This document shows, one piece after another, positions 37,546 through 61,400 of a stretch of 64,000 bases of DNA (position 1 is its first letter; each line of letters opens with the position of its first letter). The stretch comes from a virus: the IMG/VR virus record IMGVR_UViG_3300003937_000346, positions 78,723-142,722 of that record; one strand, given 5' to 3'. Under the pieces are notes generated by a model. It saw only the letters and a program-made list of their open reading frames with translations, was not told the origin of the DNA and made no database searches. A program made the translations under genes and the position numbers.

Positions 37546-37553
37546 TCATGGTC

Positions 37554-37865: not shown

Positions 37866-37868
37866 ATT

Positions 37869-37899: not shown

Positions 37900-37905
37900 C
37901 CCCGT

Positions 37906-39262: not shown

Positions 39263-39494
39263 TTCTATTTGATTTAGCTCGTTTTCTTTCTCTTCTAAGT
39301 TTTTTATCTGATAAACCTCTGTTTTCTATATCTTTAGTTTCGGTTTTGTTGTTAGTTTTTACCTTAACAGATTTTCTATTTTTCTTATATTCTTCTTTAC
39401 TACAATAAAACCAAGAACCACTACTAACCAACATTTCTGCAGTAGAGTCATCAACTCTTCTTACGTCTTCACTATTATTTTTAACTGTTTTCAT
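39255..39494 (-). CDS. hypothetical basic protein, 79 aa
   Basis: N-terminal VRRVDDSTAEMLVSSGSWFY is followed by CSKEEYKKN and a Lys/Arg-rich tail (RRERKRAKSNRND). The AEMLVSSGSWFYCSKEEYK part is the pattern of a small, widespread phage protein that folds as a short beta/alpha unit. A nucleic-acid-binding role is possible from charge alone. It overlaps the Mre11-like gene by 8 nt. Confidence 0.65.
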   Translation of the reverse strand: MKTVKNNSEDVRRVDDSTAEMLVSSGSWFYCSKEEYKKNRKSVKVKTNNKTETKDIENRGLSDKKLRRERKRAKSNRND

Positions 39495-39495
39495 A

Positions 39496-40251: not shown

Positions 40252-40681
40252 TTAATATGTTTGGGTTTTGTTGTATGGTCTGTCTTGTAATAAGATCTTT
40301 TATTTTAGTAGTTGACCAATTATGGGATCTAGTTGTATATATTACCTCTATTGGTAGTTCTTTCCCTGTGAAATCTTTACCTAAATAATCTTCACCCAAT
40401 ATTCTGATATCAGGTTTAATTATATTTATCAATTCTAATAATTCTTCTTCTGTTTGGTATACGAATACTTCATCTATGTATTGTATAGACATTAGAGTTT
40501 TATATCTTTCGTAAAGAGGGATAACAGGTTTATATTTACTTTTTCTATGTAAAGATGGATCTCTTTGTAGGAAGACAATAAACCAATCACAATGTTGTTT
40601 TGCGGTCTCGAAAGTGTATATATAACCCGGATGTAATAAATCAAAATTACCCGCAGTAAAACCTATCTTTCCTTTTCCCAT
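40232..40681 (-). CDS. cytidylyltransferase-like nucleotidyltransferase, 149 aa
   Basis: One-domain paralogue of the N-terminal half of the fusion next door: KIGFTAGNFDLLHPGYIYTF, RDPSLHRK, SHNWSTTKIKDLI. Fold and length match glycerol-3-phosphate and HldE-type cytidylyl/adenylyltransferases, with HPGY for HxGH. The product substrate cannot be told. Tandem placement suggests a heteromer or a two-step pathway for a modified sugar or nucleotide. Its ATG shares bases with the RecB-like gene stop. Confidence 0.75.
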   Translation of the reverse strand: MGKGKIGFTAGNFDLLHPGYIYTFETAKQHCDWFIVFLQRDPSLHRKSKYKPVIPLYERYKTLMSIQYIDEVFVYQTEEELLELINIIKPDIRILGEDYLGKDFTGKELPIEVIYTTRSHNWSTTKIKDLITRQTIQQNPNILNDGEEI

Positions 40682-41535
40682 TATTTTAAAACTTTATCCA
40701 TATCCATTAAAAGGATTTTATGTGTGACATCTTTAGGTACCCTATATTCCTCATAACTCATATCTTCCTTTACCAAGACGATTATACAACCTAACAATTT
40801 CTTGTGTTCAAAATCCGAACCCTCTAACATCTTCATAAGAAGTCTACCGTAAAAGGGTAGTTGTAAATAATAGTGACCTAATGCAGTACTATCTACATTA
40901 TCAAAAGGTGGATACATTTTTTTTGTGTAATGTTTCTTTTTAAAGTTTTCAGGTTTATTTGTTTTCCAATCAGTAATAACAATACCATAATCGGTACCTT
41001 CTTTATTCTCAACTAACCACACCTTATCAGGTTGACCCACATAACCTAAATCAGGATCACCTAAGACAATTTCCGTATCGAGTAATACTGCATTTCTTTC
41101 GTGCATTAACTTTATAAAGTCTTTTCCCGCACCTATCATATTATTACTTCGTTCTATTTGTTCCTCATCACATTGATATATTGGTTCTCTTACATCTTTA
41201 TAATCTCCGTACTCTGAGATCAACTCTTTTTCTAAAATGTAATGTACCCTACTCCCTTGGTTAGTTGCGTAAGTTCCTTTATCGGCCCACTCCTTTAATA
41301 ATTCTTTCTGTTTTTGTTTGTCTCCCTTAGACATTCTCCATGAGATACCTTCAGAATCAAACTCTTCATAGAATTTTTTTATAACCTTGGATACCGATGG
41401 ATAATTAGACCTAATCATACCATTATTATCCCTCATGAAATATAAATGGTCTTCCTCAATAAAAGTTAAACTTATATCTTCTCTTCTTTTATTTAGTATT
41501 TTTCTTATTTTCTCTGCCTCTTTATTTAAATCCAT
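40681..41535 (-). CDS. RecB/Cas4-type PD-(D/E)XK exonuclease, 284 aa
   Basis: Residues 95-230 hold GSRVHYILEKEL (GxxxH), a LDTEIVLGDPDLGYVGQPDK region (GQPD), VITDWKTNK (catalytic D-x-K) and YYLQLPFYGRLL (QxxxY). The N-terminus has an SYPSVSKVIKKFYEEFD-type motif seen in many phage PD-DExK nucleases. It probably degrades or trims DNA ends in replication or host-DNA breakdown. The gene is coupled to the primase by TAATG and lies in the replication block. Confidence 0.85.
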   Translation of the reverse strand: MDLNKEAEKIRKILNKRREDISLTFIEEDHLYFMRDNNGMIRSNYPSVSKVIKKFYEEFDSEGISWRMSKGDKQKQKELLKEWADKGTYATNQGSRVHYILEKELISEYGDYKDVREPIYQCDEEQIERSNNMIGAGKDFIKLMHERNAVLLDTEIVLGDPDLGYVGQPDKVWLVENKEGTDYGIVITDWKTNKPENFKKKHYTKKMYPPFDNVDSTALGHYYLQLPFYGRLLMKMLEGSDFEHKKLLGCIIVLVKEDMSYEEYRVPKDVTHKILLMDMDKVLK

Positions 41536-42476
41536 TAATCTAATTGTGTTTCGTTGTGATTTGATAAGTCACCACCCATATCGGCAATGTCCTTATCTGA
41601 GTCTAATTTTATTACCCATATTTTACCCATGAGTCTTCCCACATTCATTCTGTGGTATAATTTTACAGTATCTGACCACGCATCCCCATCCAAAACAATG
41701 GTTACTTTATTTGCGTTATCATATATTTTTTCCAATAAATTATCGGTAATGAACTTACCTAACATTGGTATAGAGTTTTCTAAAAATAAACTATCAAATG
41801 CCCCCTCAACAATATAAACGGGTTTGTCCCAATCTATCAAATGTTCGTTCCATATTAGATTATCTTTATCTGCTTGGGGATTCATATACTTTCTCCTACT
41901 ATACCTTGTAAAAGACCTAGCAACAAAATAATTTATGTCATCGTATTCATCGTACGACGGTATAATTACCCTATTTTCATATAAACCATTGTCACAATAA
42001 CCAATTCGGTATTTTTTAATCATTTCATCGGTTATATTTCTACCCCTCAAATAATTGTATGCTCGTTTATATTGGTGTGTCAATTTTCTACCTGTACTCG
42101 CCTCTGAAAATTCTATAAATTCTTTAGGTAGTCTTAATTTTTTAAATTTTTTATCTGCCCGATATACAAATTCATCAGGACTATATAATTTGAAATCTCT
42201 AATTTGTATTTTACTACCATACTTGTAAACTAACCTATTTAAATGTCCGTGTGTGTGGTGGGTTTCAGAACAAACCCAACATTTATATACAAACATTTTA
42301 TAGTTTATCTCTAAATTACCTTTACCATCACCTTCATCTAAACCCTTTACATCATGTGAACATACGGGACAATCGAACGTAATTTGACCCCTCGCATCAT
42401 TGTGTGATCTACTGTCACCAAATATATCGTGGAGAACATCAACTAACGGTATAAAATCTACTTCTTGGGTCATCAT
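41535..42476 (-). CDS. DnaG-type DNA primase (zinc finger plus TOPRIM)
   Basis: I start at ATG 42476 (MMTQEVDFIPLVDVLHDIFG), since the longer frame would begin inside the terminator hairpin. N-terminal zinc-binding Cys pairs: DCPVCSHDV and YKCWVCSETHHTHG (CHC2-like). Fingers region: RGRNITDEMIKKYRIGYCDN. TOPRIM: VYIVEGAFDSL (catalytic Glu) and IVLDGDAWSD (DxD). It makes RNA primers for lagging-strand synthesis. About 313 residues, shorter than bacterial DnaG because it lacks the helicase-binding domain, and similar to phage primases. Confidence 0.88.
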   Translation of the reverse strand: MMTQEVDFIPLVDVLHDIFGDSRSHNDARGQITFDCPVCSHDVKGLDEGDGKGNLEINYKMFVYKCWVCSETHHTHGHLNRLVYKYGSKIQIRDFKLYSPDEFVYRADKKFKKLRLPKEFIEFSEASTGRKLTHQYKRAYNYLRGRNITDEMIKKYRIGYCDNGLYENRVIIPSYDEYDDINYFVARSFTRYSRRKYMNPQADKDNLIWNEHLIDWDKPVYIVEGAFDSLFLENSIPMLGKFITDNLLEKIYDNANKVTIVLDGDAWSDTVKLYHRMNVGRLMGKIWVIKLDSDKDIADMGGDLSNHNETQLD

Positions 42477-42482
42477 AGTTAT

Positions 42483-42490
42483 AATATACG
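42483..42490 (-). promoter_or_regulatory. possible -7 box CGTATATT before the primase
   Basis: Coding-strand CGTATATTATAAC lies 7 nt upstream of ATG 42476, just after a terminator. No TTG at the 19-20 nt spacing was found, so this is weaker than others of its class. Confidence 0.35.
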
Positions 42491-42503
42491 AAAAATAAAT
42501 GAC

Positions 42504-42539
42504 AAAAAAAAGTCCCCAGGAACACCACTCCCTGGGGAC
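42504..42539 (-). terminator. rho-independent terminator after RuvC-like gene
   Basis: Minus strand GTCCCCAGG...CCTGGGGAC makes a 9-bp perfect stem with a 10-nt loop, followed by T8. It ends the unit coming from 43241 and isolates the primase operon. Confidence 0.85.
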
Positions 42540-42635
42540 AACCAACCAACGTATAAGGAATAAACCCTATACGCCCCGTTTTCTCTTTTCATTAATAAAT
42601 ATAAGTAATTTTATTAAGAAAGTAAAGTCCCTTTC

Positions 42636-43290: not shown

Positions 43291-45582
43291 TTAAAAATCT
43301 ATTTTTACTGAAATGACTTGAGACCCCTTCCTCTTAATTGGGGTTGATGTCTTAGCCGTAACTAAAGTTTCTTTATTCTGATTAAGTAAGGCCACTTCAG
43401 TAATTCTTTCTTCATTGGATCTCATACCATTATTATATGTTGGGTTTTGAGTTATATTCCATTGAGTATGTGGTAAATTAACCAAAAATCTCATTTCTTC
43501 AATGTCAGTACATCTAACTAATTTGACACTCCCCGGAAAAGGTTGCTCATCTCCAAATTGTGGGTCAGAAGATGGGTCTTGACTACCCATATAATCGGTA
43601 CCCGTTGGTAATTCTTTTAAATAATTTTCTAAATCAAATAGGTTACCTCCGTCTATATCATTTTGTGTTATTACAAAGGTATGGTCCCTAAGATTAGTAG
43701 GGTCTATTAACCCCGATACGTGATTAGGTATCTTATCCGTAATATCTATTTTAGTCCATTGTGTAGGGTCGGGTATCAAACCAACCTCATTTGTTGTTTC
43801 TTGTACTAAAACCCATAATTTATTTGCGATATAACCCTTAGTTGAACCACTGAAGGTTGTGTTCATGTGTTGGAATGATCCTACATTATTTGGGTGATCT
43901 GTCCCTCCCCATTTAAATCCTATGTTTGCGGGATACTTAATCTCACATTCATTATCAACTATATTTATTTGTACTTTAGAGAAATTATTACACGGTAAAC
44001 TGTTTAATTGGAATTCATTGCCTGATTCATAACTCAACATATATGTTAAATAATATGTTTGTGCAGTTGTTCCCGAAAAACACGACTCCGCTACTACCCC
44101 ATCACTTGGGATATGGTAAACTTTTGGTGTTGGTAAGGTATATCTTCTATTAGATCTATAATCTAGTAAAGCAACCATTTCTTGATCATCAAATACTATG
44201 ATTTTCTTATCTACAAATATTTTACCAACTCTTTTACCTATTTCATCTAAAACGTATCTAAACTTAACATATTTGGTTCTTATATCTCCAGGTGTCCCTG
44301 CGACTGTTGAGTCCATAAAATAATCCGTCACATCCATTTTAAATTCAGCGCCCACTGTAGTTCCCGTACTATTTTCATAATATATAAATGGTATGTATAT
44401 ATTAAAAAATTCTACATCTGAAATAACTTCTTCATCAACCAATACACCTTTTGTGGTTCCTGTGGAACTACCGACGTAATCATCATACTTAAAAAATCTT
44501 TCAGGATCCTCAAATACATGACCTAATTCAGAATAGTGGATTACCGCTATACATTTTTGTTCTTCTGGCGAAACAACAATCTCCTCATTAAATGAATTAA
44601 AATATGTTGTACCTGTGTTTGTAACTTGACCTTCTGAAGTACCATAACCTAAATACTCCATTGTGGATATGTGTTTTGCACTGGTGTATCCACTTATACT
44701 TTCATCGTCAATCTGACCACCTATTGGTAATTCCTTCCAAACAGTATTTAATGTCCATGGGTCATGTTGTTCACTTGGATCAACTTGGTTTGACACACAG
44801 ACTTCAGAAGTAGTTCCTGATAAAGGATGTTCTATTTTACATTTATTACAAACGACTTCAGCATAACCATTAATTGAACTAAAATCGGGGGTGTACCTAT
44901 CAACAGTTATTGTTGTTTGTCCTGTTATTACTTCATCACAATTAGGTGTTGTTGTAACTCCCGTAACTGTTGTTATATTTAAAATTTTATAAACTAAACT
45001 AGTTGAATTTCCTGTAACAACTTGTTCTTCACTCACAAATTCATTATTGAAAACTATGGTGATGTATTCGCATTGATTAAATCTTGATAAGTAATCAGTA
45101 TCTATAGAAGAAACCGATCCATTATCACAATCTAAATATGCCTGTGTTTCCGTAAATGTAATCGTATTAGTTGCACTAACCCCACTTAGAGGTATTCTAA
45201 CTGTTGCACATTCTATAGTAGTACCACTACAATTAACCTCATCATACTCTTTATATTCTGTTATGAACCCTGCAGGTCCCATTCCATTTCTTAGAGTTTC
45301 AGTAATTGAATCCTTTATTGGTACACCATACGTTGTAGTTTGGTTATTATCCATTAAATAAGGATACTTTACTTGACTATCTTTATCAAAAGGTGCAAAA
45401 ACATTTTGTTGTGGTGTATCTATCTCACCAGTTAATTGGTTAAAGGGTTGAGTATAATCGAACTCAGAATCACCAACCTGAAAAAACTTTATTTGGAAGT
45501 CCCCTTCTGCAATAGACTTTCTCCCTTTTTGGGTTAATCTCGCTGACAGGAACTCTGCATTATTTTGATTTAAGAAACTCAT
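43291..45582 (-). CDS. virion structural protein (baseplate/tail associated), 763 aa
   Basis: Opening SFLNQNNAEFLSARLTQKGR and KSIAEGDFQIKFFQVGDSEF is a conserved N-terminus of T4-like phage structural proteins (recalled, not searched). The rest is beta-rich with many Thr, Cys and Tyr, containing segments such as NIVDNECEIKYPANIGFKWG and ERITEVALLNQNKETLVTAK near the end. No Thr-Pro stalk. It is preceded by a TATTTATA box and is the last gene of the long structural run before the replication block. Its exact position in the virion is unknown. Confidence 0.65.
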   Translation of the reverse strand: MSFLNQNNAEFLSARLTQKGRKSIAEGDFQIKFFQVGDSEFDYTQPFNQLTGEIDTPQQNVFAPFDKDSQVKYPYLMDNNQTTTYGVPIKDSITETLRNGMGPAGFITEYKEYDEVNCSGTTIECATVRIPLSGVSATNTITFTETQAYLDCDNGSVSSIDTDYLSRFNQCEYITIVFNNEFVSEEQVVTGNSTSLVYKILNITTVTGVTTTPNCDEVITGQTTITVDRYTPDFSSINGYAEVVCNKCKIEHPLSGTTSEVCVSNQVDPSEQHDPWTLNTVWKELPIGGQIDDESISGYTSAKHISTMEYLGYGTSEGQVTNTGTTYFNSFNEEIVVSPEEQKCIAVIHYSELGHVFEDPERFFKYDDYVGSSTGTTKGVLVDEEVISDVEFFNIYIPFIYYENSTGTTVGAEFKMDVTDYFMDSTVAGTPGDIRTKYVKFRYVLDEIGKRVGKIFVDKKIIVFDDQEMVALLDYRSNRRYTLPTPKVYHIPSDGVVAESCFSGTTAQTYYLTYMLSYESGNEFQLNSLPCNNFSKVQINIVDNECEIKYPANIGFKWGGTDHPNNVGSFQHMNTTFSGSTKGYIANKLWVLVQETTNEVGLIPDPTQWTKIDITDKIPNHVSGLIDPTNLRDHTFVITQNDIDGGNLFDLENYLKELPTGTDYMGSQDPSSDPQFGDEQPFPGSVKLVRCTDIEEMRFLVNLPHTQWNITQNPTYNNGMRSNEERITEVALLNQNKETLVTAKTSTPIKRKGSQVISVKIDF

Positions 45583-45635: not shown

Positions 45636-47597
45636 TTATCTGGGTTCTTCTACTCTATCATTATCAGGACAACTACCTTCAAAACAATTACCTGTTATTT
45701 GATATTGTACTTTAGGGTCCGATACTGTTATGTTGTTACCATCTCCACACACCTTTTCCGTCGCATATGACCCAACAACCACTGTTTGTGATATTCCACT
45801 ACAATCATCGTAATATCCCGCCCTGTCACCAGTTGAAATGTTTGTAAACTCTATACACACACAAGTCGGTAATGCTGTCGGTACAGGTGTTGCTGTTTGT
45901 GGTGGTGGTGATCCTGCACAATCTCCTGGTAGTAATGTTACAGGTTCCATATTGTTTGGATTACTATATATCCATGAATTACTTCTAACACATCTAGGTG
46001 GTTGTACACAATCCCCACCAGGTACAGATAGATTATATGTGATACCATCACATCCTTCATATTGTACTTCAGAACCTGCAGTCCCTTCCTTCGAACAAAA
46101 TTCTATATCAACACAGGTTTCTGTAGGTGTTGGGGTTGGTGTCTCTGTTGGAATAGGAGTATATGTCGGTATTGGTGTATCTGTAGGTATTGGTGTAGGA
46201 CTACTTGTTGGTGTAGGTGTAGGTGTCTCCGTACTTGTTGGAGTGGGAGTAGGGGTAGGTGTTTCTGTACTTGTGGGTGTTGGACTACTTGTAGGTGTAG
46301 GTGTTGGACTACTTGTAGGTGTAGGTGTTGGACTACTTGTTGGGCTTGGCGTTGGTGTATTAGTAGGTGTAGGTGTCGGCGTCTCCGTACTTGTTGGAGT
46401 TGGTGTTGATGTTGATTCGGTGACGGGTGTAAAATCTTCGGTTATTTTTGAAGGGATTTGAGATGCCCCATATACCGTGAATAGTACATCGTCTACCAAT
46501 GTTAAAGTATAAGGTGAAGTTCCCATTATTTGGTAAATCTCTCCACCAACATCGACTATATATATACCTGACCCATATTCGAATACCCCGTAAGCGTTTG
46601 GTATGGTTCCGCTTATGTCTATATCCACCTCAACAGTTCCAGTGGCATAATCATACTGAGTAATATAACCGTTATTGGTAACAATTAATTTATTTGTTGT
46701 GGTGTACATATAATCCCCCTGAACCACTCTTCCTGTAATCATCGACCATTTAAGTGTTGCGGAAGGAACATTAGTTGTTATATCTAACTCATAAACATCA
46801 CTTCCATCAATGTTTATTAACGTGGTGTCATTAATTGCACATAAACCAGAATTTGAAGATACTGATGTTATAGTTCTATTGAAGGTTTGGGAGAAAGGAT
46901 TTAACGTTATGTCGTATTCTAACAATGAAGTACTAGCACCACCGTCATATACCCATAATTTATTGCTTGTGTTTGCAATATCATATGATGAGTTAGTCGA
47001 GTCAAATAAATACGTTAATACCGTAGTATTAGGGTTATACGAGTAAATCGAACTCGGTGAACTACCATTATTTAAAAATACGTCAATGTCCGACACAACG
47101 ATTGGTGTTGGTGTGGGTGTTTCTGTACTTGTAGGTGTTGGAGTCTCCGTACTTGTTGGAGTGGGAGTAGGTGTCTCCGTACTTGTTGGGGTACCCGTAG
47201 GTGTGGGGTATGAACCTTCCACAAAACTAACACTGAAATTACAATCCGTTAACGTCTCCTCTACAAAACTAACAACCATTGTACAATTAATTGCATCTGA
47301 GTTTGGTGGACATACTTCACAATCAACATCTATTAATACTACTTGGAATCCACCTTGTTTTTTTGGGTCTTCATTTGGAGGGGGTGAAATATGATTATCA
47401 CAATGTTCTAAAAAGACATATAATGGCCCACTATAAAAACCAATATCAAAAGTATGTGGTAATGTATGAAAACCAATACTGTTTGCTGATGGTGGTATTG
47501 TAAATGGGTGTCCATTATAGGTTGTACCTGTATATATGGTAAACCCACTACACACTCCATTATCATAATTATTTTTAACCGTTACAAGATTACCCAT
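45636..47597 (-). CDS. Thr-Pro-stalk structural protein with beta-propeller-like and Cys-rich domains, 653 aa
   Basis: N-terminal module ([20 protein letters not shown]) followed by a short Thr-Pro stretch near 135-165. Residues 170-390 form a repeat domain of short strands ending in [14 protein letters not shown] and [18 protein letters not shown], like a PQQ/propeller fold. A long Thr-Pro stalk lies near 395-490. C-terminal Cys modules: [14 protein letters not shown] with [14 protein letters not shown], and [16 protein letters not shown]. The first Cys module is paralogous to one in the next gene upstream. Virion surface display is inferred. Confidence 0.65.
46120..46410. repeat. Thr-Pro-coding GT-rich repeat
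   Basis: GT-rich hexamer repeats encoding the long stalk of the 653-aa protein; includes tandem copies of GGACTACTTGTAGGTGTAGG. Confidence 0.75.
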
Positions 47598-47618
47598 TAT
47601 ATCTATTTAGTCTATGTA

Positions 47619-47626
47619 TATAAATA
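47619..47626 (-). promoter_or_regulatory. putative late promoter box TATTTATA
   Basis: Coding-strand TGTATTTATATAC, 22 nt upstream of ATG 47597. Confidence 0.5.
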
Positions 47627-47674
47627 CAATAGAAAGAGAATAATAAACCGATAAAAACAATTTAACAATATGTT

Positions 47675-49261
47675 TTATTCAGTCGGGGTTGATGTAGGAT
47701 TGATTGGCTCACTATAAGGATTCTCTCCAGTCCCTGAACCACACATTTGACCTACGTCTGTTACAACCCCCTGTTCACTAATGTTTATGTATTGTGGATT
47801 ACCAACTGTCTCATTTGAGTTCTCACCTTGGCTTTCAGATACAAAATAAAATAGTAATGGGTTACCTACAATTGGATCTCCATCATCATATACTGTAGTA
47901 TTCAACATATTACCAATAGATGTGGCGGAAGATGTTATTGCTCTGGTGGCGGTGTAACCTGGTGCTTGACAGAAATCATTCGAAACTGATCTACCCGAAC
48001 TGAGGTAGTACTCATTCGCTCCGATTGGTCCACCTACGTCACCTTTACTACTTGTGGCTGTTGGTGTTGGTGTTACTTCTGATCCATTAGAATTACCACA
48101 ATCTCCTACTACTAATGTTGCAGGTGTGAAGTTATCTGGAATACTGTACGTCCACGAATTATTTCTAACACATGTAGGTGCCGGTATACTATCTCCACCA
48201 GGTACCGTTAAAGTACGTGTGTTACCATCACAATCTTCATATGTAACAGTACCACCTACGGTTTCACTTTTTCCATTAAATTCTATATCAACACATGGTT
48301 CCTCTATACTTGTAGGTGCTGGTGTTTCTGTAGGTGTTGGTGTTGGTGTTTCTGTTGGTTCTAAACTCGGACATACACATGAAGTATTAATTATAGTGAG
48401 AGATACATTAGCCCCTGTTTCTATTCCTATATATTCATAACATTTATTATTAGTCTCACCATCAAGTCTTACATATACTGTATCCCCTATCGTTGGTGTA
48501 GACCCATATTCATCTGTAGTTAAGTAAATAGGTGGTTCTGATGGTCCTCCAGCAGCTTGAGTACCCACCTCTTCACTAACAGGTGAGGTCTCTACCGTAT
48601 TACAGTGTGCAAATTTTAGATTTCTGATCTGTACATTATCTGCCGTTGGGCTTGGAGTAGGTGTAGGTGTCGGTGTTTCTGTTGGTACCGGTGTATATGT
48701 TGGTATTGGTGTTGGCATGTTATCACAAACCCCTTCAGAACATGAACCGTAAAGACTATATGTTAATTTACTATTAGTAACACTGTCTATACTTTGAGCA
48801 CATACGTAGAATGTCCATGGTTCTTTGTCGGAAACCGCCTCTATACTTGTGCCACTACAATCAGTATATGTATATGAAATAGCATTGGTAGTTGCGTTAA
48901 TAAACTCATAACATTGACATGTGACCTCATCCGTAGGTGTTGGTGTTGGTGTTTCTGTTGGTACCGGAGTATATGTTGGTATGGGTGTTTGTGTTGGTTG
49001 GGATGTTAAATTAAAAATTTCTGTATTTGTTGGACAGTCGGTTGCAACATCGGGATTAGTATTAAAGAATATGATACTATTTGCATTATCGGGTACTTCT
49101 ATTACTACACCAGATTGTACTTGGGATAGTGTTAGATTCTCCGCTTTATTTGATGTACCGAATAGATCTGCAAGTGTTCCTACGGATACGGTATCGTAGT
49201 ATATATTATAGGGACCTTGATCGGTTCCACTAGTTAATGTTACTGTAAACTTTCTTGCCAT
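47675..49261 (-). CDS. Thr-Pro-stalk structural protein with Cys modules, 528 aa
   Basis: Opening RKFTVTLTSGTDQGPYNIYY is a homologue of the opening of the 2057-aa protein ([20 protein letters not shown]), suggesting a shared anchor domain of about 70 residues. Cys modules alternate with short Thr-Pro links: CQCYEFINATTNAISY, CVCPSLEPTETP and CVDIEFNGKSETVGG with VPGGDSIPAPTCVRNN. The last 130 residues include GANEYYLSSGRSVSNDFC and a second small domain. Gene order and promoter box place it in the adhesin run. Confidence 0.65.
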   Translation of the reverse strand: MARKFTVTLTSGTDQGPYNIYYDTVSVGTLADLFGTSNKAENLTLSQVQSGVVIEVPDNANSIIFFNTNPDVATDCPTNTEIFNLTSQPTQTPIPTYTPVPTETPTPTPTDEVTCQCYEFINATTNAISYTYTDCSGTSIEAVSDKEPWTFYVCAQSIDSVTNSKLTYSLYGSCSEGVCDNMPTPIPTYTPVPTETPTPTPTPSPTADNVQIRNLKFAHCNTVETSPVSEEVGTQAAGGPSEPPIYLTTDEYGSTPTIGDTVYVRLDGETNNKCYEYIGIETGANVSLTIINTSCVCPSLEPTETPTPTPTETPAPTSIEEPCVDIEFNGKSETVGGTVTYEDCDGNTRTLTVPGGDSIPAPTCVRNNSWTYSIPDNFTPATLVVGDCGNSNGSEVTPTPTATSSKGDVGGPIGANEYYLSSGRSVSNDFCQAPGYTATRAITSSATSIGNMLNTTVYDDGDPIVGNPLLFYFVSESQGENSNETVGNPQYINISEQGVVTDVGQMCGSGTGENPYSEPINPTSTPTE

Positions 49262-49285
49262 TCTATGATTTTTTAATTCTTATTA

Positions 49286-49293
49286 TATAAATA
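49286..49293 (-). promoter_or_regulatory. putative late promoter box TATTTATA
   Basis: Coding-strand ATATATTTATATAATAAG, 25 nt upstream of ATG 49261. Confidence 0.5.
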
Positions 49294-49309
49294 TATCCTC
49301 ATTCTAAAA

Positions 49310-50428
49310 CTACTCACCACAATGTGTTGTATCATTACAATCATCAACTGTTGCGTTCCTACTTGCTAACGCGTTATGTGGTGTATTTGAGTCCGTGGCG
49401 GTAATAGTACCACAATAGGTCTCACCATAACACGAACCGTTAGTAACGTTCATTTGTTTGAATTGGATAACATCTCCAACACTATATGTTGGTGGTGTAC
49501 CTGTCATACAGTTCTTATTTTTGGCAACAGTAAATTGTTGTCCGTCAGTACATCTACTTACCGTATAATTACCACAATCCCCGTTAAGTAAACTAAACCC
49601 ATCACCGTAATTTAATGTCGGTGTTGTTTCTGAACATACAACCCTATAGTTAGCCCATTGTGAAGACGTTTCACCTTGTCCTGTCATATATAATGAGTAC
49701 TCATTACATGTTGTTGGTGTATCTGTACTTGTTGGGGTTGGAGTTGGGGGTGTATATATACAACTCTTATTAATACTACAACTACCCCCATTTGGTGGTC
49801 TTTCCACACCAACCGGGTCAGTTATTGCACCTTGCCCACCATCGAAATCATAATATAGTGGGTAAGTTTCACTACACACACCGAAAACTGTCCCGACCAC
49901 ACCATCATAAGTCGTCGATTGACCGGCAATATCAGTGAATCGTGTAAGTATTATAACCCCATTTTGAACATAATCTAAACCGTACCCTGTTGTACTAATA
50001 GTATCAGGTACAAATACAAACCTACATCCTCTTTCACCTGGTGTCGATGACGGTGTTGGAGTAGGTGTACTTGTTGGAGTAGGTGTAGGTCCAGGTGGTA
50101 ATGTCGGTGTTGGGGTGGGTGTTGGTCCTTCCGTTGCCGTTGGTGGTATTGAAGTGGGTGTTACCTCCAATTTTATTATTTCATCGTAACATCCGTCAGA
50201 CGATATTCTCATATAACAGTGCGGTACGAAAGGATTATTAGGGTCATTACTAATATTTAAATCACTATCCTCAAACATTAAATCAAGTGGTATATCCTCA
50301 CTAACTATATTCGCATACACTAAATTAGTTGTATCCCCACTTGTTAAACCCGAATATAAATCAACGGGAAAGTCATCTAATGAATGACTGTTATCTAACG
50401 AAATATTTAGTCTTACTATTCTCCCCAT
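49310..50428 (-). CDS. Thr-Pro-linker structural protein, Cys-rich, 372 aa
   Basis: N-terminal module (GRIVRLNISLDNSHSLDDFP) of about 90 residues, Thr-Pro linker near 95-130, then Cys-rich beta domains: GCRFVFVPDTISTTG, CSINKSCIYTPP and CNEYSLYMTGQGETSS. The last 80 residues (CTDGQQFTVAKNKNCMTG; GDVIQFKQMN; YCGTITATD; HCGE) match the C-terminus of the 195-aa protein at 51640, another shared module. It lies 1 nt after the vWA gene, so the two are co-translated. Confidence 0.63.
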   Translation of the reverse strand: MGRIVRLNISLDNSHSLDDFPVDLYSGLTSGDTTNLVYANIVSEDIPLDLMFEDSDLNISNDPNNPFVPHCYMRISSDGCYDEIIKLEVTPTSIPPTATEGPTPTPTPTLPPGPTPTPTSTPTPTPSSTPGERGCRFVFVPDTISTTGYGLDYVQNGVIILTRFTDIAGQSTTYDGVVGTVFGVCSETYPLYYDFDGGQGAITDPVGVERPPNGGSCSINKSCIYTPPTPTPTSTDTPTTCNEYSLYMTGQGETSSQWANYRVVCSETTPTLNYGDGFSLLNGDCGNYTVSRCTDGQQFTVAKNKNCMTGTPPTYSVGDVIQFKQMNVTNGSCYGETYCGTITATDSNTPHNALASRNATVDDCNDTTHCGE

Positions 50429-50429
50429 A

Positions 50430-51551
50430 TTATTCTTCTGTACAATCAGGTATACTATAACCTAAATTATTAATCGCTGTAATTATAAGTCCCATATAAT
50501 ATTGTGGAGTACTCGATGGAGTAACACCGTAGGTATTATGTATTTGACTTTTATCAGATAATCCATTAACACCACTATAATTACCTAAACCATTTTCAAC
50601 CGCTTCCAATAAATTTCTAAAGGACAAAAACTGTCCAGTAGTACTAGTTTCGACTTGGAAAATTTCTCCAACAATATAATTAAGTGGATTATTATCAATG
50701 TTATTTCTTAAAAGTACCATGTCATTATCAAAAGTGGAAGTTCTTGGGTCTGTGTTAGACCACCCAGTACTACCGTGGAGAGATGAGGCACCTTCATCTT
50801 GAAATGATAAGTTTATAACTTGAGTAATTGATGATGTTGTACCAGTCGTTGATAGACAACCGTAACTTCTTTCATAAAAACCTTCCTCCGACATATTTAA
50901 AACTCTTACCCTACTATCGTACAGTGCTGAGTCATTGTTATAAAATGGTAATAAACAATCTTTAAGAATCGTACTCGCCATAGTATCTAACGGGGATTTG
51001 GTACCACTCATAGACCCCGAATTATCAAAGAATATATTAATTTCGGTCTCGTCATCAAGTACAATTGATGTAGGTGTTGGGGTTGGGGTTATTCCCGGTG
51101 TCGAAGTTGGTCCGGGTGTTGGTGTCGGTTCGGGTGTTGGTGTTGGTGGTAGTACACATTCATAAGATACACTAAACTTTATCTTATCGTAACATTCAAA
51201 TGTCTTACTATCATGTATGTATATGTTTTCTACAATGTACCTTGGTGTTTGATTGTTCTCACATACATCTATAACGTTTACTTTATCCTCCATTTTCAAC
51301 CAAAATTCGGTGTCAAATTCTAAATCATAAAATATTACTTCTGATGATGATGGTATACCATTAACCACTTCGGGTTCATTGTCACCAATATAAATTGGTT
51401 CAGTTCTATAGTCTCTGTCCGTAGAGTTTGGCCAAGAATTATCAGGTCTAGGTCCATCTAATTTTGTAAACGGTCCATAAGGTGACAACCCAATACTTAA
51501 ATCAAAGTCATTAGGTGAAACAATATCAAATACCCTTACAATTAATCCCAT
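50430..51551 (-). CDS. Thr-Pro-linker protein with von Willebrand A (vWA) domain, 373 aa
   Basis: N-terminal module (GLIVRVFDIVSPNDFDLSIG) of about 130 residues, short Thr-Pro linker near 135-165, then a vWA domain. EINIFFDNSGSMSGTKSPLD gives the MIDAS motif DxSxS, followed by the helix LDTMASTILKDCLLPFYNN and strands RVRVLNMSEEGFYERS. Conserved Thr and Asp MIDAS partners may lie in STTGTTSSITQ and STFDNDMV. vWA domains bind protein ligands through a metal ion. An adhesive head on the virion is the likely role. Confidence 0.7.
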   Translation of the reverse strand: MGLIVRVFDIVSPNDFDLSIGLSPYGPFTKLDGPRPDNSWPNSTDRDYRTEPIYIGDNEPEVVNGIPSSSEVIFYDLEFDTEFWLKMEDKVNVIDVCENNQTPRYIVENIYIHDSKTFECYDKIKFSVSYECVLPPTPTPEPTPTPGPTSTPGITPTPTPTSIVLDDETEINIFFDNSGSMSGTKSPLDTMASTILKDCLLPFYNNDSALYDSRVRVLNMSEEGFYERSYGCLSTTGTTSSITQVINLSFQDEGASSLHGSTGWSNTDPRTSTFDNDMVLLRNNIDNNPLNYIVGEIFQVETSTTGQFLSFRNLLEAVENGLGNYSGVNGLSDKSQIHNTYGVTPSSTPQYYMGLIITAINNLGYSIPDCTEE

Positions 51552-51554
51552 ACA

Positions 51555-51562
51555 TATAAATA
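51555..51562 (-). promoter_or_regulatory. putative late promoter box TATTTATA
   Basis: Coding-strand ATGTATTTATATGTATG, only 4 nt upstream of ATG 51551. With this spacing the message would start at or after the annotated ATG, so this site is less certain. Confidence 0.35.
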
Positions 51563-51587
51563 CATTAATAAGTAGATTACTTTAAAT

Positions 51588-51615
51588 AAAAAAACCCGTC
51601 ATAATAACGGGTTTT
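51588..51615 (-). terminator. bidirectional rho-independent terminator
   Basis: AAAACCCGT and ACGGGTTTT form a 9-bp stem with a 7-nt loop and U-runs on both strands. On minus it follows the 195-aa gene (stop at 51640) by about 25 bp. Confidence 0.85.
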
Positions 51616-51639
51616 TTAAAGTATATTAAACAAGTTAAG

Positions 51640-52227
51640 TTATTCCATACATTCTGTATTCGTACAACCTTTTGATTTGTTAAGAAGTTCGTGTTTGATT
51701 AATACTGCGTTTCTTTCAGATACTGAATTCACTGCTGTGATTATACCACAATATGAAGTTTGTTCTGAATTACAAGAAGTACCATCTGTAAATTGTACAT
51801 ATTCACCCACAATATAAATACTTGGGTTAGGAGGAGTACTTAAATTACCCTCAATACAACTTATATCATCAGCTAAATAGAATAGTTGATCATCGTTACA
51901 TCTACTAACTACAAAAACTGAAGATGATGAAGGTTCTGGCGTTGCGGTAGGTGTTGGTATTTCTCCACCTTCACACGTTAAACCTGCCCAAGGTACTGAA
52001 TTAGTACAGTCTCCTGTTGATGTTATTGTTCCTCCCGAAATTGTTGCTGCAATTGTGTATGTAACACCAGTAGTTAAATCTGATGCGGTTACCCCTGTTG
52101 CAATTATTGTATCTGCAGGAGAACCATTACAGTGTTTACCGACAATAGTGAAATTATCTGCCTCCGTAGTTCCTGTGTACAACCCATTTAATGTGAATGT
52201 TACTTGATAGTCGTTTGATGCTGCCAT
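51640..52227 (-). CDS. short structural protein with shared Cys-rich C-terminal module, 195 aa
   Basis: N-terminal module NDYQVTFTLNGLYTGTTEAD with TSGVTYTIAATISGG-like strands, a very short Pro/Thr/Ser linker (EIPTPTATPEPSSSS), then a C-terminal domain: SRCNDDQLFYLADDISC, GEYVQFTDGTSCNSEQTSYC and CTNTECME. The C-terminal domain is homologous to that of the 372-aa protein. It is the smallest member of the family and may show the minimal plan: anchor, linker, head. Its own promoter box and terminator flank it. Confidence 0.65.
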   Translation of the reverse strand: MAASNDYQVTFTLNGLYTGTTEADNFTIVGKHCNGSPADTIIATGVTASDLTTGVTYTIAATISGGTITSTGDCTNSVPWAGLTCEGGEIPTPTATPEPSSSSVFVVSRCNDDQLFYLADDISCIEGNLSTPPNPSIYIVGEYVQFTDGTSCNSEQTSYCGIITAVNSVSERNAVLIKHELLNKSKGCTNTECME

Positions 52228-52252
52228 ATTATTTAATTTTATTTTCTTTTAT

Positions 52253-52260
52253 TATAAATA
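52253..52260 (-). promoter_or_regulatory. putative late promoter box TATTTATA
   Basis: Coding-strand ATATATTTATAATAAAAG, 26 nt upstream of ATG 52227. Confidence 0.5.
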
Positions 52261-52299
52261 TATCGTTATTACGATTTATTCGTTTTGTTATTTTTTTAT

Positions 52300-55200
52300 T
52301 TATTCGAATCCTTTAATACTTTTACTACAATCCGAGTTTTGAGTACACGAAGTATCAAAAGGTGTTACTGTTATCCCCCCTGATTGAGGTCCATCGAAAG
52401 TATTACCACCTAAACCATATTTAAAACTATGACTAACTGGTGATTGACTACAGAATTTAAAAATATTACTATCCTCGTCTTCACCAATCTCCGCTAAATA
52501 TTGAGCTAGGTTTATATCAGTCAACCCATTTTCACAATCATTATTAACGTAGTATAAATCCTGACCACCGTTTGTTAATTTACTTGAAATAACACCGACC
52601 TCTACACAATTACAGCCATCACTATCATCAAATGTACTTTCAATAGTTGCACTGTTGGCGGTACATCCATTCGCATCTGTTACTACGACGTAATAATATC
52701 CTTGTGATAAATTACTGAATGTCTGTGAATGGTTGGCCGAAGTTACACCTGTAATTGTTGCAACTAATGTCCCACCACCAACCGTATATGGTGAAGTGGT
52801 ATCCTCATATAATCTATAAGTTTTTGGCCACACACCTCCCGTAGATGTCACGGTAATACTACCCGTACTTCCTGTTGTTGTGGTAAACGATGTTATAGAA
52901 ACCGTTTGTGCCGTTGGTTCTGTGACTGTGATCGTATATGCTTCTGTACATCCCGAACCATCTTTTATGGTAATATAATGATCGCCCGCAGATAAATTAT
53001 TATAAGTATGAGGGGACGTGGTTAAGTAAGAACCTAAACCAAATCTATGTGAATATGTTCCACCATTACCACCTGTCATACTTGAAACTTCAATTTCTCC
53101 ATCAGAACCTCCGTTACAACTCACAGATGACATAGTGAATGTCGCACTAGGGTCTGTTTTACTTAAAGTTACTGTACCTGTAGTACTACAATTTTCACCA
53201 TCTTTAACTCTCAATAGGTATGTCCCTATAGTTAGATTAGAAAAAGTTCTATTTGACTGATAATTTATCCCGTTATTTATGGAATATTGATATGATCCAT
53301 TACCCCCACTTGCAGTAAATGTTATTTCTCCGTCACTATCCCCATTACATGTTGGGTGGGTTACTGAAGTGGTGAAACTTACTGCTGTAGGTATTGTTAT
53401 TGTTCTATCATATGTCCTTGTACATCCATCTCCGTCTTTTATAGTAATTGTATATGTTCCTGAAGATAGAGGTGAGTAAATTGTTGGACTACCTATTGTT
53501 GTATATGGACCATTCCCAATTTTTGATTCATAAGTTGGTCCGTTTCCTCCCGCAGGACTCGATACTGTAATCGCACCACTACCCGAACTACAACTTGGGT
53601 TAGACGTAGTTACTGTAGCCAATGGTGAAGATTTAGATAAGTTAACCGAAACTGAATCACTACACCCATTATCATCTTCTGCATATAAAACATAAGAACC
53701 TGTAGTTAAACCTGTAACCGTTATATTAGTTATTAATGTACCATTTAGTCTGTATGTGTATGAACCTGAACCACCACTAACCGCAAAATTTATACTACCA
53801 TCACTACTGTAACTACATGAAGGATGAGATAAACTAGTGTACGATACAACAACCGACGTTGGCTCTGTAACACTTCTACTGTACCCTCTTTCACAACCAT
53901 CACCATCTTTTATGGTAATAGTATGACTACCAACAGTTACTGAAGTGAATGTATATGAATTAGATGAAAAGTTCTGATACGATCCTGTGTCTAATTTAAC
54001 TTGGTATGTACCTCCATTCCCACCTGATGGATTAGAAACGGTTATTGATCCTCTGTCTCCGTTACACAATGCGTTTGTTACTGAAATGGTTGCTGTTGGG
54101 TTAGTCTTTGTCAAAGTGTACGAAACTGTACTTATACATCCACGAGTATCCTTAACATATGCGGTACCACTTCCTACAGACAAGTTATTAAATGTATTAG
54201 ATATGTAATAATTTGACCCATTAATAGAATACACATATGATCCCGATCCACCACCACCTGTTATGGTTATTGATCCGTCTTTACTATTTGCACAAGATGG
54301 ATGGGTTACAGATACAGATGATGTTACTGCTGTTGGTTGACCTAAAGTATAAGAATAACTTCTACTACACTGTTGACCATCCCTAACCTGTATTGTGTAT
54401 GTTCCGGCGGATTTATTTGTAAACGTTACTGCGGAACTAAAATTAGTCCAATTACCACTTTCAAATTTAAACTGATACGTACCACCGTTTCCGCCCGTAA
54501 TTGATGATAATGTGATGTCACCATCATTACCTCCATTACATGAAGGTTGATTACTGTAAATTGATGCACTTACTTGTGTTCTATTTAATGTTGTTGATGT
54601 GGTATCCACACAACCATTACTATCTTTAACATATAACGTATATGTTCCATTACCAAGACTTGTGAATGAATTTGATGTTTGATAAGATCCACTACCTATT
54701 TTATAAGTGTACGATCCCGTACCACCACTACCTGTAACAGTTATAGAACCATCAGTATCACCAAAACATGTTGGATTCGTTGATGCAGTACTTGCAGTAA
54801 CTCCATTGTTTTCTGTAATGGTCTTAATGTAAATCCCTTCACAACCATCACTATCTTTAATATAAATATTGTAGGTATCTGGTGATAAGTCCTCATAAAG
54901 TTGGGTACCTGTTAAGTTAACATATGTTCCATTACTATTTAATTTGACTTGGTATGTTGCTCCCGACCCACCTGTTGGATTAGAAACCGATATTGTACCA
55001 TCGTCGTCACCATTACATACCACATTTGTGGACGTAATAGTTGCAAATGGTTTTGTAGTAGATAAAGTAACAGACCCAATACTTGAAGTACATCCATTAC
55101 CGTCTCTTACTCTTATACTATTACTACCTGTCCGTAAACCTGTTTTTACGTTTGATGATTGCCAAAAACCATTAAACTGATATTCGTAAGATCCGTTACC

Positions 55201-58200
55201 TCCTGAAGCTGTAAGAGTAATACTACCGTCTTTACCATTCCAACATGTTGGGTCAACATGTGTTTCTGTAAATGTTACAGCCGCGGGTTCCGTAATTGTT
55301 ATACTATATGTTCTTTCACAACCATCACCATCTTTAACATAAATAGTATATGTTCCATCCGATAAAGTTGAATATAGTTTATAATCAGTTAAAGTTTCGT
55401 AGGTCCCATTACTATTTAATTTGACTTCATATCCACTACCTGATCCTCCTATAGCTGAAGTTACATTAATCCAACCATCACTACCACCGTTACATGTGAC
55501 ATTAGATTGTGTTACTGTTGCGGATACTTGTGTTACACTTAAAGTTACAACCCTACTATCAGTACATCTATTTTCATCTGTCGCGATGAAAGTATAAGTA
55601 CCAGCACTCAAGTCTGAGTGAAGTGTTTCCGTTGTTTCGTCACCATTTATAGTATAAGTTATTTCACCTGTTCCACCAACAACAGAAAATTGTATTTCTC
55701 CATCACTCCCCCCATAACATGTTGGGTCTGTGTGTGAATCAGTTATGTTTAATACTGGTGGTTGTGTTATTGTTTTACTTACTGTACCTATTTCACCATT
55801 GTCATCTTTTATAGAAACAATGTACGTACCCGCCGAAAGGTTTGAGAATGTCGTAGATGTTTGATAATTTATACCGTTTATACTATACGTGTATGGTGAA
55901 TCTCCCCCCGTTTGTGATGTAACTTCAATCTCACCTGACGAATCATTATAACAAGTTAAGTTTGTTCCACTAAGAGTACCTGATACAGATATATTTGTTA
56001 TTGATATGATTATTTTTTTCTCATACCATAACCCTCCTTGATCTGTTGATCTTACTCTTATTGTGTATGAATTCTTGGTTTCATAATCAAAAACTTCACC
56101 ACTTTTTAAGGTCGTTCCGTCTATATAAAATGAACCATTGTTGGTATCTCCAACACCACTTACTAATGTATATGTAAATGTATTTCCTGCGTCAGGGTCT
56201 GTTGTGGATAATGTTCCCACAGTGGTCCCTGTTGCCACATTCTCATCAATAGATGAATTAGATAATGATATGTTTGTTGGAGTTTCATTAACATTAGTTA
56301 CATTAATAGTAAACGATTCTTCTCTGTATAAACCACCTTGGTCTGTCGATCTTACTCTAACTGAATAAGTGTTCTTAACTTCATAGTTGAATATTTCACT
56401 ACTTTGAATCTTATCACCACTTATTTTAAATGAACTGTTATTAGTGTCACCCACTCCACTTACTAATGTATATGTGAATGTGTTTCCTGCGTCAGGGTCT
56501 GTTGTGGATAATTGACCAACCGTAGTACCCGTAGAACTATTTTCAGGAATATTATTATTTTTTAAAGTTATATCTGTAGGTACTTCGTTTGCGTTGGTGA
56601 TATTAATTGTTACTGATCTTTCGTGTGTTAAACCACCTGAATCTGTTGCTTTGACTCTTATTGTATAGGAGTTTTTAACTTCGTAGTTGAACACCTCGTT
56701 AGATGTCAGAGTACCATTACTATTCAAACTAAACGAATCGTTGTTGGTATCTCCAAGACCACTTACTAATTCAAAAGTATGTGTATCACCCGAATCAACA
56801 TCGGTGGCGGTGAATGTAGTAACTGTTGTTCCTGTCGATTGATTTTCTTGGAATGATACTGTTGATGGTGTTATGTTAGAAGGGGTTTCGTTAAGATCTG
56901 TAATCAAAATCGTAAATATACCTATGTGGGTTAATCCCCCCGAATCAGTAGTTTTTACTCTTATAGAATAACTGTTCTTACCTTCATAGTTATAAACTTC
57001 TTTACTTTTTAGAACACCACCACTTGTTAATGTAAATGAACCATTATTAGTATCTCCTAAACCACTAACAAGTTCATAAGAATGACTATCTCCCGAATCA
57101 ACATCCGTACTACTGAAAGTACCTATTGTTGTTCCTGTAGATTGATTTTCCGCAATACTATTACTTGATAAGGATAAATTTGTTGGTGATTCATTAACGT
57201 CAAGTACTGAAATTGTAAATGTATCCGTATAAGTGTTATTACCACTATCCGTAACCGTCACTTCAATACTATAAGAGTTTTTAACCTCATAATTAAAAAC
57301 TATTGCATTTTTTAGTACACCCGAACTTGATAAGGCGAACGCCGAATTATTATTACCACTACCCGTTAGTGCGTATGTAAATGTTTCGTTACTGTCAACA
57401 TCTAACCCCGAAAAAATACCAATTGTTGTCCCCGTTGGTGTGTTTTCTCTTTGTGAATTATTACTTAAGGTTAAACCGTATGGTGTTTCATTAACATCGA
57501 CTATGTCTACCGTAAATTCTCTTGTATTTGTTAATCCACCGTTATCGGTGACCTTAACATATAAAGTATATAAACTTTTTACCTCATGGTTGAAAACCTC
57601 CGCGTTAGATAATACCCCACCACTAGTCAATGAGAAAGAATTATTATCAGGATAATTAGCGGTATCTTCAAATACCCACGTAAACGTTCCTCCCTCATCA
57701 TCATTTGCAACTAAGTTACCTATTGTAGTTCCCGTTGCCGTGTTTTCTGTTTGAGAAAAATTAGGTACTATTATGGAGGGTCTTGTATTAAGTGTAACAT
57801 CAACATCAAAGTCACAATTTGGTGTAGGACTTGGTGTAGGTGTTGGTGTACTAGTCGGAGTTGGAGTAGGACTTGTCGTCGGACTCGGTGTTGGTGTAGG
57901 AGTTTCTGTTGGGCTCGGACTTGGACTTGGTGTAGGTGTTGGTGTACTAGTCGGAGTTGGTGTTGGACTACTTGTTGGGCTTGGTGTGGGTGTTGGTGTT
58001 GGTGTAACCACATTGATGTCCATATCAAAATCACAATTTGGAGTTGGACTTGGTGTAGGTGTAGGTGTTGGACTAGTCGTTGGACTTGGTGTAGGTGTGT
58101 TAGTTGGGCTAGGTGATGGAGTTGGTGTAGGAGTTTCTGTTGGGCTCGGACTTGGTGTAGGACTTGGTGTAGGACTACTTGTTGGTGTAGGGGTGGGTGT

Positions 58201-58473
58201 ACTTGTTGGTGTTGGTGATGGAGTTGGGGTTGGTAAAATAATTTCATCATCAATCACACATGAATTATTATATAGTAATATTGAAGTTGCACTGTTAGGG
58301 ACACTAACCGTAACTCCCGAACCACTTGTTAAATCATTGTACGTCACACCCGTTGCAGGTAATGAGGTACTCACTCTTGTTGCGATATTGGCGGCATCGA
58401 CTTGATCGTAGTATATCGTATAGAGACTGTGTGAAGTCCCTGATGTTATTTTTATGTCGAATATTCTTGCCAT
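52300..58473 (-). CDS. giant adhesin-like structural protein: Thr-Pro stalk, cadherin and SprB repeats, 2057 aa
   Basis: Order: N-terminal module ([20 protein letters not shown]); Thr-Pro stalk near 80-220 with two CDFD motifs ([22 protein letters not shown]); six cadherin-like repeats near 235-830 ([39 protein letters not shown]). Then 13 SprB-type repeats near 830-1850 ([25 protein letters not shown]) and one degenerate copy lacking the Cys. The last 120 residues ([20 protein letters not shown]) are Cys-rich. SprB repeats come from Bacteroidota gliding adhesins, and cadherin repeats usually bind Ca. The protein probably extends from the virion to touch the host surface. Confidence 0.8.
57820..58240. 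repeat. Thr-Pro-coding GT-rich repeat
   Basis: Plus-strand GGTGTTGGTGTAGG-type hexamer repeats, interrupted by two copies of the CDFD-coding segment near 58030 and 57800. Confidence 0.8.
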
Positions 58474-58491
58474 TATTAAAATATATACTTT

Positions 58492-61400
58492 TTAATTCAA
58501 ATTATGAACGGTAACATCCCCCTCAAAACTACAGTCACATAAAATGTGAACATGTAATAATGATGTTAATGTGGAATCCCACTCGGTTACTATTATGATT
58601 GCATTATTATCATTATCTATAAATCTTATATCAGTATCAAATAACCTATTTGAACCTGTTGGTGTAAGGGTACCATCTGTATGGTCAAAAGAACTTACTT
58701 CAGTCCCTACAGGTGATGTATGCTCCCCAATACAACTCCTTCTCATAGTACTACCTTCATAGTAAACGTAAACAATACATGTGTTTGTGTCGTAAGTCCA
58801 TTCTTCACTATTCGTTGATACTACATTACCACTCTTATCTCTCACTTCATTACAATATCCACCCAATTCTTTAAAGTTGGACCCAACCAAGTTAGTGTTC
58901 CAAGTTTGGAATAGATCTGAGTTTATTGTTGTCGTACATGGTGCAGGACAATCTATTGGTGTAGGTGAAGGTGTTGGTGAAGGTGTTGGGCTTGGAGTAG
59001 GTGTTGGTGTAGGTGTTTCTGTTGGGCTAGGTGTTGGACTACTTGTTGGTGTTGGTGTAGGTGTTACCACATCAACGTCTACGTCGAAATCACAGTTAGG
59101 TGTAGGTGTAGGGGTAGGCGTACTAGTTGGGCTTGGTGTAGGTGTGTTAGTTGGAGTACTTGTCGGACTTGGCGTTGGTGTATTAGTTGGACTCGGACTT
59201 GGGGTAGGTGTAGGAGTACTTGTTGGGGATGGTGTTGGTGTAGGTGTAACTACATCAACATCAATATCAAAATCACAATTCGGTGTAGGAGTTGGTGTTG
59301 GAGTACTAGTTGGACTTGGGGTAGGACTACTTGTTGGTGTAGGTGTAGGTGTCTCCGTACTTGTTGGAGTGGGTGTAGGTGTATTTGTAGGACTTGGTGT
59401 AGGTGTGTTAGTTGGAGTAGGAGTAGGAGTAACTACGTCAACATCCACATCAAAATCACAGTTAGGTGTTGGAGTCGGTGTGGGTGTGTTAGTAGGGCTA
59501 GGTGTTGGACTACTTGTTGGGCTTGGCGTTGGTGTGTTAGTTGGAGTACTTGTTGGACTACTACTAGGTGTTGGTGTTGGACTACTTGTTGGGCTTGGTG
59601 TAGGTGTATTAGTAGGTGTAGGAGTAGGGGTAACTACATCAACATCAATATCAAAATCACAATTTGGCGTAGGGGTAGGTGTTGGAGTTGATGTACTTGT
59701 TGGTGTTGGAGTAAGACTACTTGTCGGACTTGGTGTAGGTGTATTAGTAGGTGTAGGAGTAGGTGTGTTAGTTGGTGATGGCGTAGGACTACTTGTTGGT
59801 GTAGGTGTAGGTGTTACCACATCAACATCAATATCAAAATCACAGTTAGGTGTGGGTGTGGGGGTAGGTGTATTGGTTGGACTTGGTGTGGGTGTATTAG
59901 TCGGAGTACTAGTAGGGTTTGGTGTTGGACTACTTGTTGGGCTTGGTGATGGTGTAGGAGTAGGTGTTACCACATCAACATCAATATCAAAATCACAGTT
60001 AGGTGTTGGACTTGGCGTTGGAGTGTTAGTTGGTGTATTAGTTGGACTCGGACTTGGTGTAGGGGTTGGAGTACTAGTCGGAGATGGTGTAGGAGTAGGT
60101 GTTACCAAATCTACATCAATGTCGAAATCACAATTAGGTGTTGGAGTCGGTGTTGGGGTATTAGTACTTGTTGGAGTTGGAGTAAATGTAGGAGTATTAG
60201 TACTTGTTGGGCTTGGTGATGGTGTGGGGGTCGGAGTTACCACATCAATATCTATATCGAAGTCACAATCTGGTGTGGGTGTAGGTGTTGGACTACTTGT
60301 AGGACTTGGTGTAGGACTACTTGTTGGAGTTGGGGTAGGTGTTACCAAATCCACATCAATGTCGAAATCACAGTTAGGTGTAGGTGATGGAGTTGGTGTT
60401 GGTGTACTACTTTCCGTTGGAGTTGGAGTACTTGTAGGAGTTGAGGTTGGTGTAGGTGTTACCAAATCTACATCAATGTCGAAATCACAATCTAATGTGG
60501 GTGTAGGGGTTGGTGTTGGATTTGAGACATTCGTTGGTATCGGTTCTGTAGGGCTTGGTGTAGGTGTTGGTGTCACTAAATCAACGTCCACATCAAAATC
60601 ACAATTTGGTGTAGGAGTAGGTGTTGGGGTTGATGTGGGTGGTATATTAGTACTTGTTGGAGTCGGAGTTACTAAATCTACATCAATGTCGAAATCACAA
60701 TCTAATGTGGGTGTTGGTGTTGGACTACTTGTTGGGCTTGGTGTGGGTGTTGGTGTAGTTAAGTCAACATCAATATCAAAGTCACAATCTAATGTAGGTG
60801 TAGGACTTGGTGTAGGTGTGGGTGTAGTTAAATCTACATCAATATCAAAGTCACAGTCGATAGTTGGTGTTGGGGTTAGTGTACTTGTTGGGCTAGGTGT
60901 TGGTGTGGGTGTAGTTAAATCTACATCAATATCAAAATCACAATTCGGTGTAGGAGTTGGTGTAGGTGTCGATGTATTTGTTGGTGTAGGAGTTGGAGTT
61001 GTCAAATCCACATCAATATCAAAATCACAGTCGATAGTTGGTGTAGGAGTAGGTGTAGGAGTAGGAGTTGTCAAATCCACATCTATGTCAAAGTCACAAT
61101 TTGGTGTGGGTGTAGGTGTTGGTGTCTCCGTACTCGTAGGTATTGGTGTGTCCGTAGGTGTAGGTGTAGGTGTTTCAGTACTAGTTGGTACTGGAGTATC
61201 CGTAGGTGTAGGACTAATAGTAGGTGTAGGGGTAGGAGTTTCTGTACTTGTTGGTGTAGGACTACTAGTAGGTGTAGGGGTTGGACTATTAGTAGGTGTA
61301 GGTGTGGGAGTCGGAGTACTTGTTGGTGTTGCCGATGGACCTGGTCGTCTAACATCATCACATGGACCCGATACCATATATTCAATAACATTGGCATAGA

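Follow-up and report, generated by a model that had tools for sequence, protein, structure and literature searches.

The canonical MIDAS consists of a DxSxS motif together with a Thr and an Asp, and Glu220 of integrin beta3 presumably occupies the position of that Thr. The metal site of integrin beta3 is described as comprising the DXSXS motif, Asp251 and a Glu220 that is shared with the adjacent site (PMC3792891). The Streptococcus pilus adhesin PilB is described as an anchor module followed by a C-terminal vWA head with a MIDAS at the filament tip (PMC8179133), and a vWA domain has been presented as a possible target-binding module on the tail-derived fibres of eCIS (PMC12923769). The muzzle of crAss-like phages is reported to be the tail tip, and the description of the PhicrAss001 muzzle names five domains, none of them a vWA (PMC10172136).

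The protein considered here is encoded in a 64,000-nt window, the whole stretch of DNA that was analysed, which forms the end of a 142,722-base IMG/VR virus record from a marine phage. Its C-terminal domain finds its best solved-structure matches in integrin beta-I (I-like) domains, with which it has in common the DxSxS, a Glu (beta3 Glu220) and an Asp (beta3 Asp251); unlike them it is only about 200 aa long, has no hybrid domain, gives no indication of a SyMBS or an ADMIDAS and has a sequence relation that is undetectable beyond the motif. With the canonical prokaryotic VWA (PF00092) it shares the predicted order of strands and helices, the DxSxS and an Asp after a later parallel strand, and such a VWA replaces it in one relative; the Pfam profile, however, does not match it, and it lacks a conserved Thr. 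PilB resembles our protein in layout and is also found among the re-alignment rows of the domain model (Z about 8), but it belongs to a bacterial pilus rather than a virion and bears a canonical VWA. The domain of the eCIS fibres is likewise a Pfam VWA, whereas the phage family is unmatched by the Pfam model, and, in contrast to the PhicrAss001 description, one member of our family (L019) forms the C-terminal end of a crAss-like muzzle protein.

Layout of the protein and its neighbourhood

The gene, of 373 aa and starting with ATG (50430-51551, minus strand), encodes an N-terminal module (aa 1-135; 51147-51551, minus), which is presumed to be the virion anchor, a Pro/Thr-rich linker or stalk (aa 136-165; 51057-51146, minus), which is short at 30 aa and variable in length, and the C-terminal vWA-like domain (aa 166-373; 50433-51056, minus), which begins with TEINIFFDNSGSM. 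Both the start and the layout are identical in the relatives L001-L004, and the model of the whole protein (7 sequences) is not confident (pLDDT 35.5). The earlier note had placed the domain as the head of a phage stalk protein; the layout supports this, with the head C-terminal, after the N-terminal module and the linker, and its location on the virion of the window's phage being putative.

Around the gene runs a same-strand cassette whose products, of 653, 528, 372, 373, 195, 2057 and 1833 aa, are for the most part rich in Pro and Thr (45636-63993, minus). The cassette is found again in four relatives as well as L011, its order being kept in L001-L003 and L011 as far as the loci reach. The 2057-aa neighbour (52300-58473, minus) contains 13 SprB-repeat and 6 cadherin stretches, and since SprB repeats are known from gliding adhesins of Bacteroidota, this gives a hint of a Bacteroidota host. 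The 1833-aa protein (58492-63993, minus), near the record end, has many Pro/Thr stretches split by 16-aa-like units. PHROGs recognises another gene of the window as a tail fibre and finds nothing for the protein at 43291-45582. SbcC/SbcD-like genes and genes for an exonuclease and a primase occupy 34693-42545 (minus), together with one resembling a bifunctional heptose kinase/adenylyltransferase. Among named sequences the primase comes closest to that of a Flavobacterium phage, with an identity of only 31%. The Gly/Val-rich ORFs on the plus strand (45838-46461 and 47086-47394) mirror Pro/Thr repeats of the opposite strand and are probably not genes. A promoter and terminator scan performed no better than shuffles.

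An uncatalogued family with a predicted vWA-like fold

The motif FFDNSGSMSG (aa 174-183), which the earlier note had read as an intact MIDAS start, contains DxSxS at aa 176-180 (D176-N-S178-G-S180; 51012-51026, minus). By itself DxSxS is weak evidence, with 20 occurrences in window ORFs of at least 100 codons. We nevertheless judge the motif to be real, and the observation confirmed, because relatives recruited without it keep it, because acidic positions that took no part in recruitment are conserved, and because the predicted fold is a confident alpha/beta arrangement of the vWA type. As to the first, a domain-only search with motif-free patterns gave 20 loci, some of them near-duplicates, all of which retain D-x-S-G-S. 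A wider search gave 117 relatives in viral contigs, among 219 pattern matches, a number that argues against the supposed rarity of such domains in virion proteins; the best 80 of the 117 were examined, and 64 unique domains were reduced to 51 representatives, pairwise less than 80% identical. DxSxS occurs in 51/51 of these, a count affected by recruitment bias (49/51 match the motif pattern). E227 (50871-50873, minus) and D252-E253 (50793-50798, minus), which played no part in recruiting family members, are conserved to a similar extent: E227 and E253 are invariant (51/51 each) and D252 is found in 49/51, with one N and one E elsewhere.

This family is uncatalogued: save for single weak library hits, such as those of domain members to PHROGs, it goes unrecognised by Pfam, by PHROGs, by PDB sequences and by the records of named phages. 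A collection of 50,697 phage records gave no tblastn match to P0001, to P0003 or to any of three further members, a PDB sequence profile search gave none, and Pfam found no family in P0001 at E up to 1. By sequence the domain does not belong to Pfam VWA (PF00092): VWA was absent among hits up to E 10 for 17 domain members, its profile went unmatched in 23 of 24 virus records (the sole match being the canonical domain of L011), and it had no match in G000, as against matches in 11 of 14 control genomes. Comparison by hhalign with the single L011 protein yielded no sequence link to VWA; comparison of profiles with 20 canonical VWA sequences aligned the two in register over 13 residues around the motif only, with a probability of 31% and a score of 30.5, whereas none of 20 column-shuffled controls scored above 14.5. 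A literature search, thin in its coverage of subscription journals and so leaving absence from print unproven, found no paper on the domain.

The fold is probably vWA-like, a parallel alpha/beta sheet arranged as in vWA. The AlphaFold2 model of the domain (17 sequences) reaches a pLDDT of 91.0 and a pTM of 0.90, and the fold that the earlier note expected from structure prediction is supported. A Foldseek search of the PDB gave nothing at E <= 0.001, its first rows being GTPases, an O-acetyltransferase, caspases and other Rossmann-like folds, which could speak for a Rossmann-like or degenerate enzyme whose likeness to vWA is a common arrangement only. When Foldseek's best chains were re-aligned (999 aligned), however, 14 integrin entries came out on top (Z 10.6-9.5; rmsd 3.2-4.6 A over 155-161 residues), led by an integrin beta-I domain at a Z of 10.6 and an rmsd of 3.2 A over 155 residues, where models without a clear match typically have a best Z of 7-8; mostly other vWA folds followed, among them inter-alpha-inhibitor, the proteasome subunit Rpn10, vWF A1 and PilB. 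Since the conserved set is moreover DxSGS plus Glu plus Asp-Glu, and a Pfam VWA naturally replaces the domain in L011, we regard an enzyme as very improbable. In a viral structure library the top row was a close relative (A0A516LFG0_2; E 1.9e-16, TM 0.84, 28% identity), and several further rows were named VWFA proteins. The DSSP string of the model has five main strands; beta3, the edge strand that runs antiparallel in vWA, is not evident.

The putative metal site departs from the textbook MIDAS that the earlier note had seen in the motif. At any given position between 212 and 251 inclusive, at most 29 of the 51 representatives have Ser or Thr, and the invariant E227 lies between the second strand and D252, where the canonical MIDAS has its Thr. 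The Asp, which had been looked for, is probably D252, an assignment made by topology: in vWA the MIDAS Asp is borne by the strand that D252-E253 directly follows here. The residues of an integrin beta-I type MIDAS, namely DxSxS, Glu for Thr, and Asp, are present and conserved, with a geometry that is inferred; this Glu-for-Thr pattern agrees with the ranking of integrins first among structures. Judged from conservation, the acidic set resembles the beta-I site, and the domain may coordinate a metal.

Exchange of the domain among scaffolds

In the relative L011 (6001-7176) the same N-terminal module and linker are followed by a canonical VWA (Pfam E 3.3e-10, past the cut-off; head sequence DRTGS ... 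GGGGFPEPTDNAL ... TDATPSG), no copy of the cryptic domain being present in its 145,663-base record; L011 and L012 have the N-terminal module (aa 1-135) in common with our protein and differ in their C-terminal parts. L004 has a second copy of the domain at the C-terminus of its large protein, and the window homologue of that protein, 50% identical over the preceding 145 aa, ends about where the domain of L004 begins. The two parts of the protein also differ in their divergence. Between L003 and L004 the domain is 91% identical in nucleotides, with 5/73 fourfold sites changed, as against 66% and 12/22 in the N-terminal part; between the window and L003 the order is reversed (N-terminal part 96%, domain 79%), and the recombination boundary falls at about the Pro/Thr linker. 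A domain of 72% identity sits on another scaffold altogether, a 2084-aa protein (L016/L043). Overall, single-linkage BLAST, which may merge or split true families, sorts the N-terminal scaffolds of 84 loci into 22 groups, and in 67 of the 84 the domain is C-terminal, ending no more than 20 aa from the stop. Such comparisons indicate that the domain recombines independently of its anchor, in the manner of a receptor-binding protein, whose anchor and tip evolve apart and whose tip is exchanged and variable. That an uncatalogued domain is traded among many unrelated phage proteins makes an interchangeable, host-gripping head probable.

PHROGs and Pfam were each run on 10 of the 84 domain-bearing proteins, plus P0005 and the window protein. 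PHROG classes L019 as virion structural (1160 bits) and Pfam identifies it as a crAss-like muzzle (PF25731, E 3.9e-12), of which the domain is the C-terminal ~190 aa. The N-terminus of L128, from a bacterial genome, matches a tail-assembly PHROG (7.3e-9); of the rest of the 10 proteins, 2 hit PHROGs families that have no assigned function and 6 hit nothing.

The domain is not confined to phages, because bacterial chromosomes carry copies. Among the matches listed, one locus came from genome contigs, those of a Verrucomicrobia isolate whose genome has the domain twice. One of the two copies lies in the protein at L116 (3363-7298), where it follows GAP1-N2 and a P-rich linker and precedes SHD1 and FGE-sulfatase; the GAP1-N2 and FGE parts of this protein are reminiscent of bacterial conflict systems. 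When 288 genomes of the phylum were searched, 4 had a match, and in three genomes other than the isolate's the domain ends an open frame of ~410-440 aa (L128, 838-2064; L124-L126). For the L128 group a prophage is likely, as the one tested frame resembles a tail-assembly protein.

Variation within the domain is unevenly distributed. Across six close domains the mean entropy was 0.91 bits in coil after strands, that is, on the MIDAS face (42 positions), versus 0.39 in coil after helices (32 positions) and 0.41 in strands and helices (112 positions); the difference between metal-face and opposite loops was reached in 11 of 20,000 permutations, with only 6 sequences and neighbouring positions that are not independent. 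The loops were assigned to the two faces by a rule applied to the DSSP string; the contrast was larger with a hand-drawn split, made with the alignment in view and omitting the MIDAS residues. A fixed acidic site in a variable crown is the pattern expected of a ligand-binding head. A diversity-generating retroelement behind this variability was considered and rejected, RVT_1 being absent from 8 of 8 records, possibly fragments.

Domains of vWA type are often protein-protein adaptors, for instance beside AAA ATPases in the haloviruses described in PMC7911831, and the verrucomicrobial copies do sit in other contexts, so that the domain might instead bind another virion protein, as a tail-assembly or fibre-docking adaptor, with a metal site that is structural. 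An adaptor would be expected to co-evolve with its partner, yet the head has been exchanged independently of its anchor, varies most on the metal face and is mostly terminal, and we consider this alternative improbable.

A candidate receptor-binding head

The fold and the modularity of the domain are well supported, and a putative binding role is favoured by the swapping and by the variability of the loops that surround the predicted metal site. We propose that the N-terminal module would fix the protein to the phage particle and that the Pro/Thr-rich stalk would hold out the C-terminal head, which would grip its partner, integrin beta-I style, via a divalent metal on D176, S178, S180, E227 and D252. 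The variable loops round the metal would set specificity, and the head, an interchangeable module, would pass between phages through recombination at the linker. Its partner would most likely be a host surface molecule. As a whole, this account of a modular, metal-dependent receptor-binding head on a virion stalk is the one towards which we lean, with some confidence; the shortness of the linker, the protein at 43291-45582 without a PHROG match, the Foldseek result, the brief profile alignment with VWA, the edge strand that is not evident and the copies in bacterial chromosomes weigh against it. The earlier note, which had expected metal-dependent binding of a host protein, is partly supported: a host ligand would be in keeping with the proposed head, but that it should be a protein is a guess.

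Within the same account the head might bind a glycan (capsule, LPS or exopolysaccharide) with Ca or Mg at this same site, and not a protein. Phage tail tips often bind glycans, and the window holds the heptose kinase/adenylyltransferase-like gene; the best documented MIDAS ligand, on the other hand, is an acidic protein side chain, the Asp of integrin RGD (PMC3792891), and we think the glycan version rather unlikely, though less so than an adaptor.

Returning to the receptor-binding head, we tentatively extend it, at somewhat less than even confidence, to several unrelated kinds of tailed phage, crAss-like phages included, which may share an unrecognised family of integrin-beta-I-style, metal-dependent heads and trade them as plug-in receptor binders among stalks, muzzles and tail proteins, each head bearing a crown of variable loops round its fixed metal site. 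For most environmental phages the receptor has yet to be found, in part because their tip domains go unrecognised, and one domain that combines variable loops with a constant, probable metal site and occurs on 22 scaffold groups provides a searchable handle for the tip proteins of uncultured phages. Metal-dependent phage adhesion thereby becomes directly testable and, if the account is true, these heads would add one more use of the integrin-type, metal-gripped ligand.
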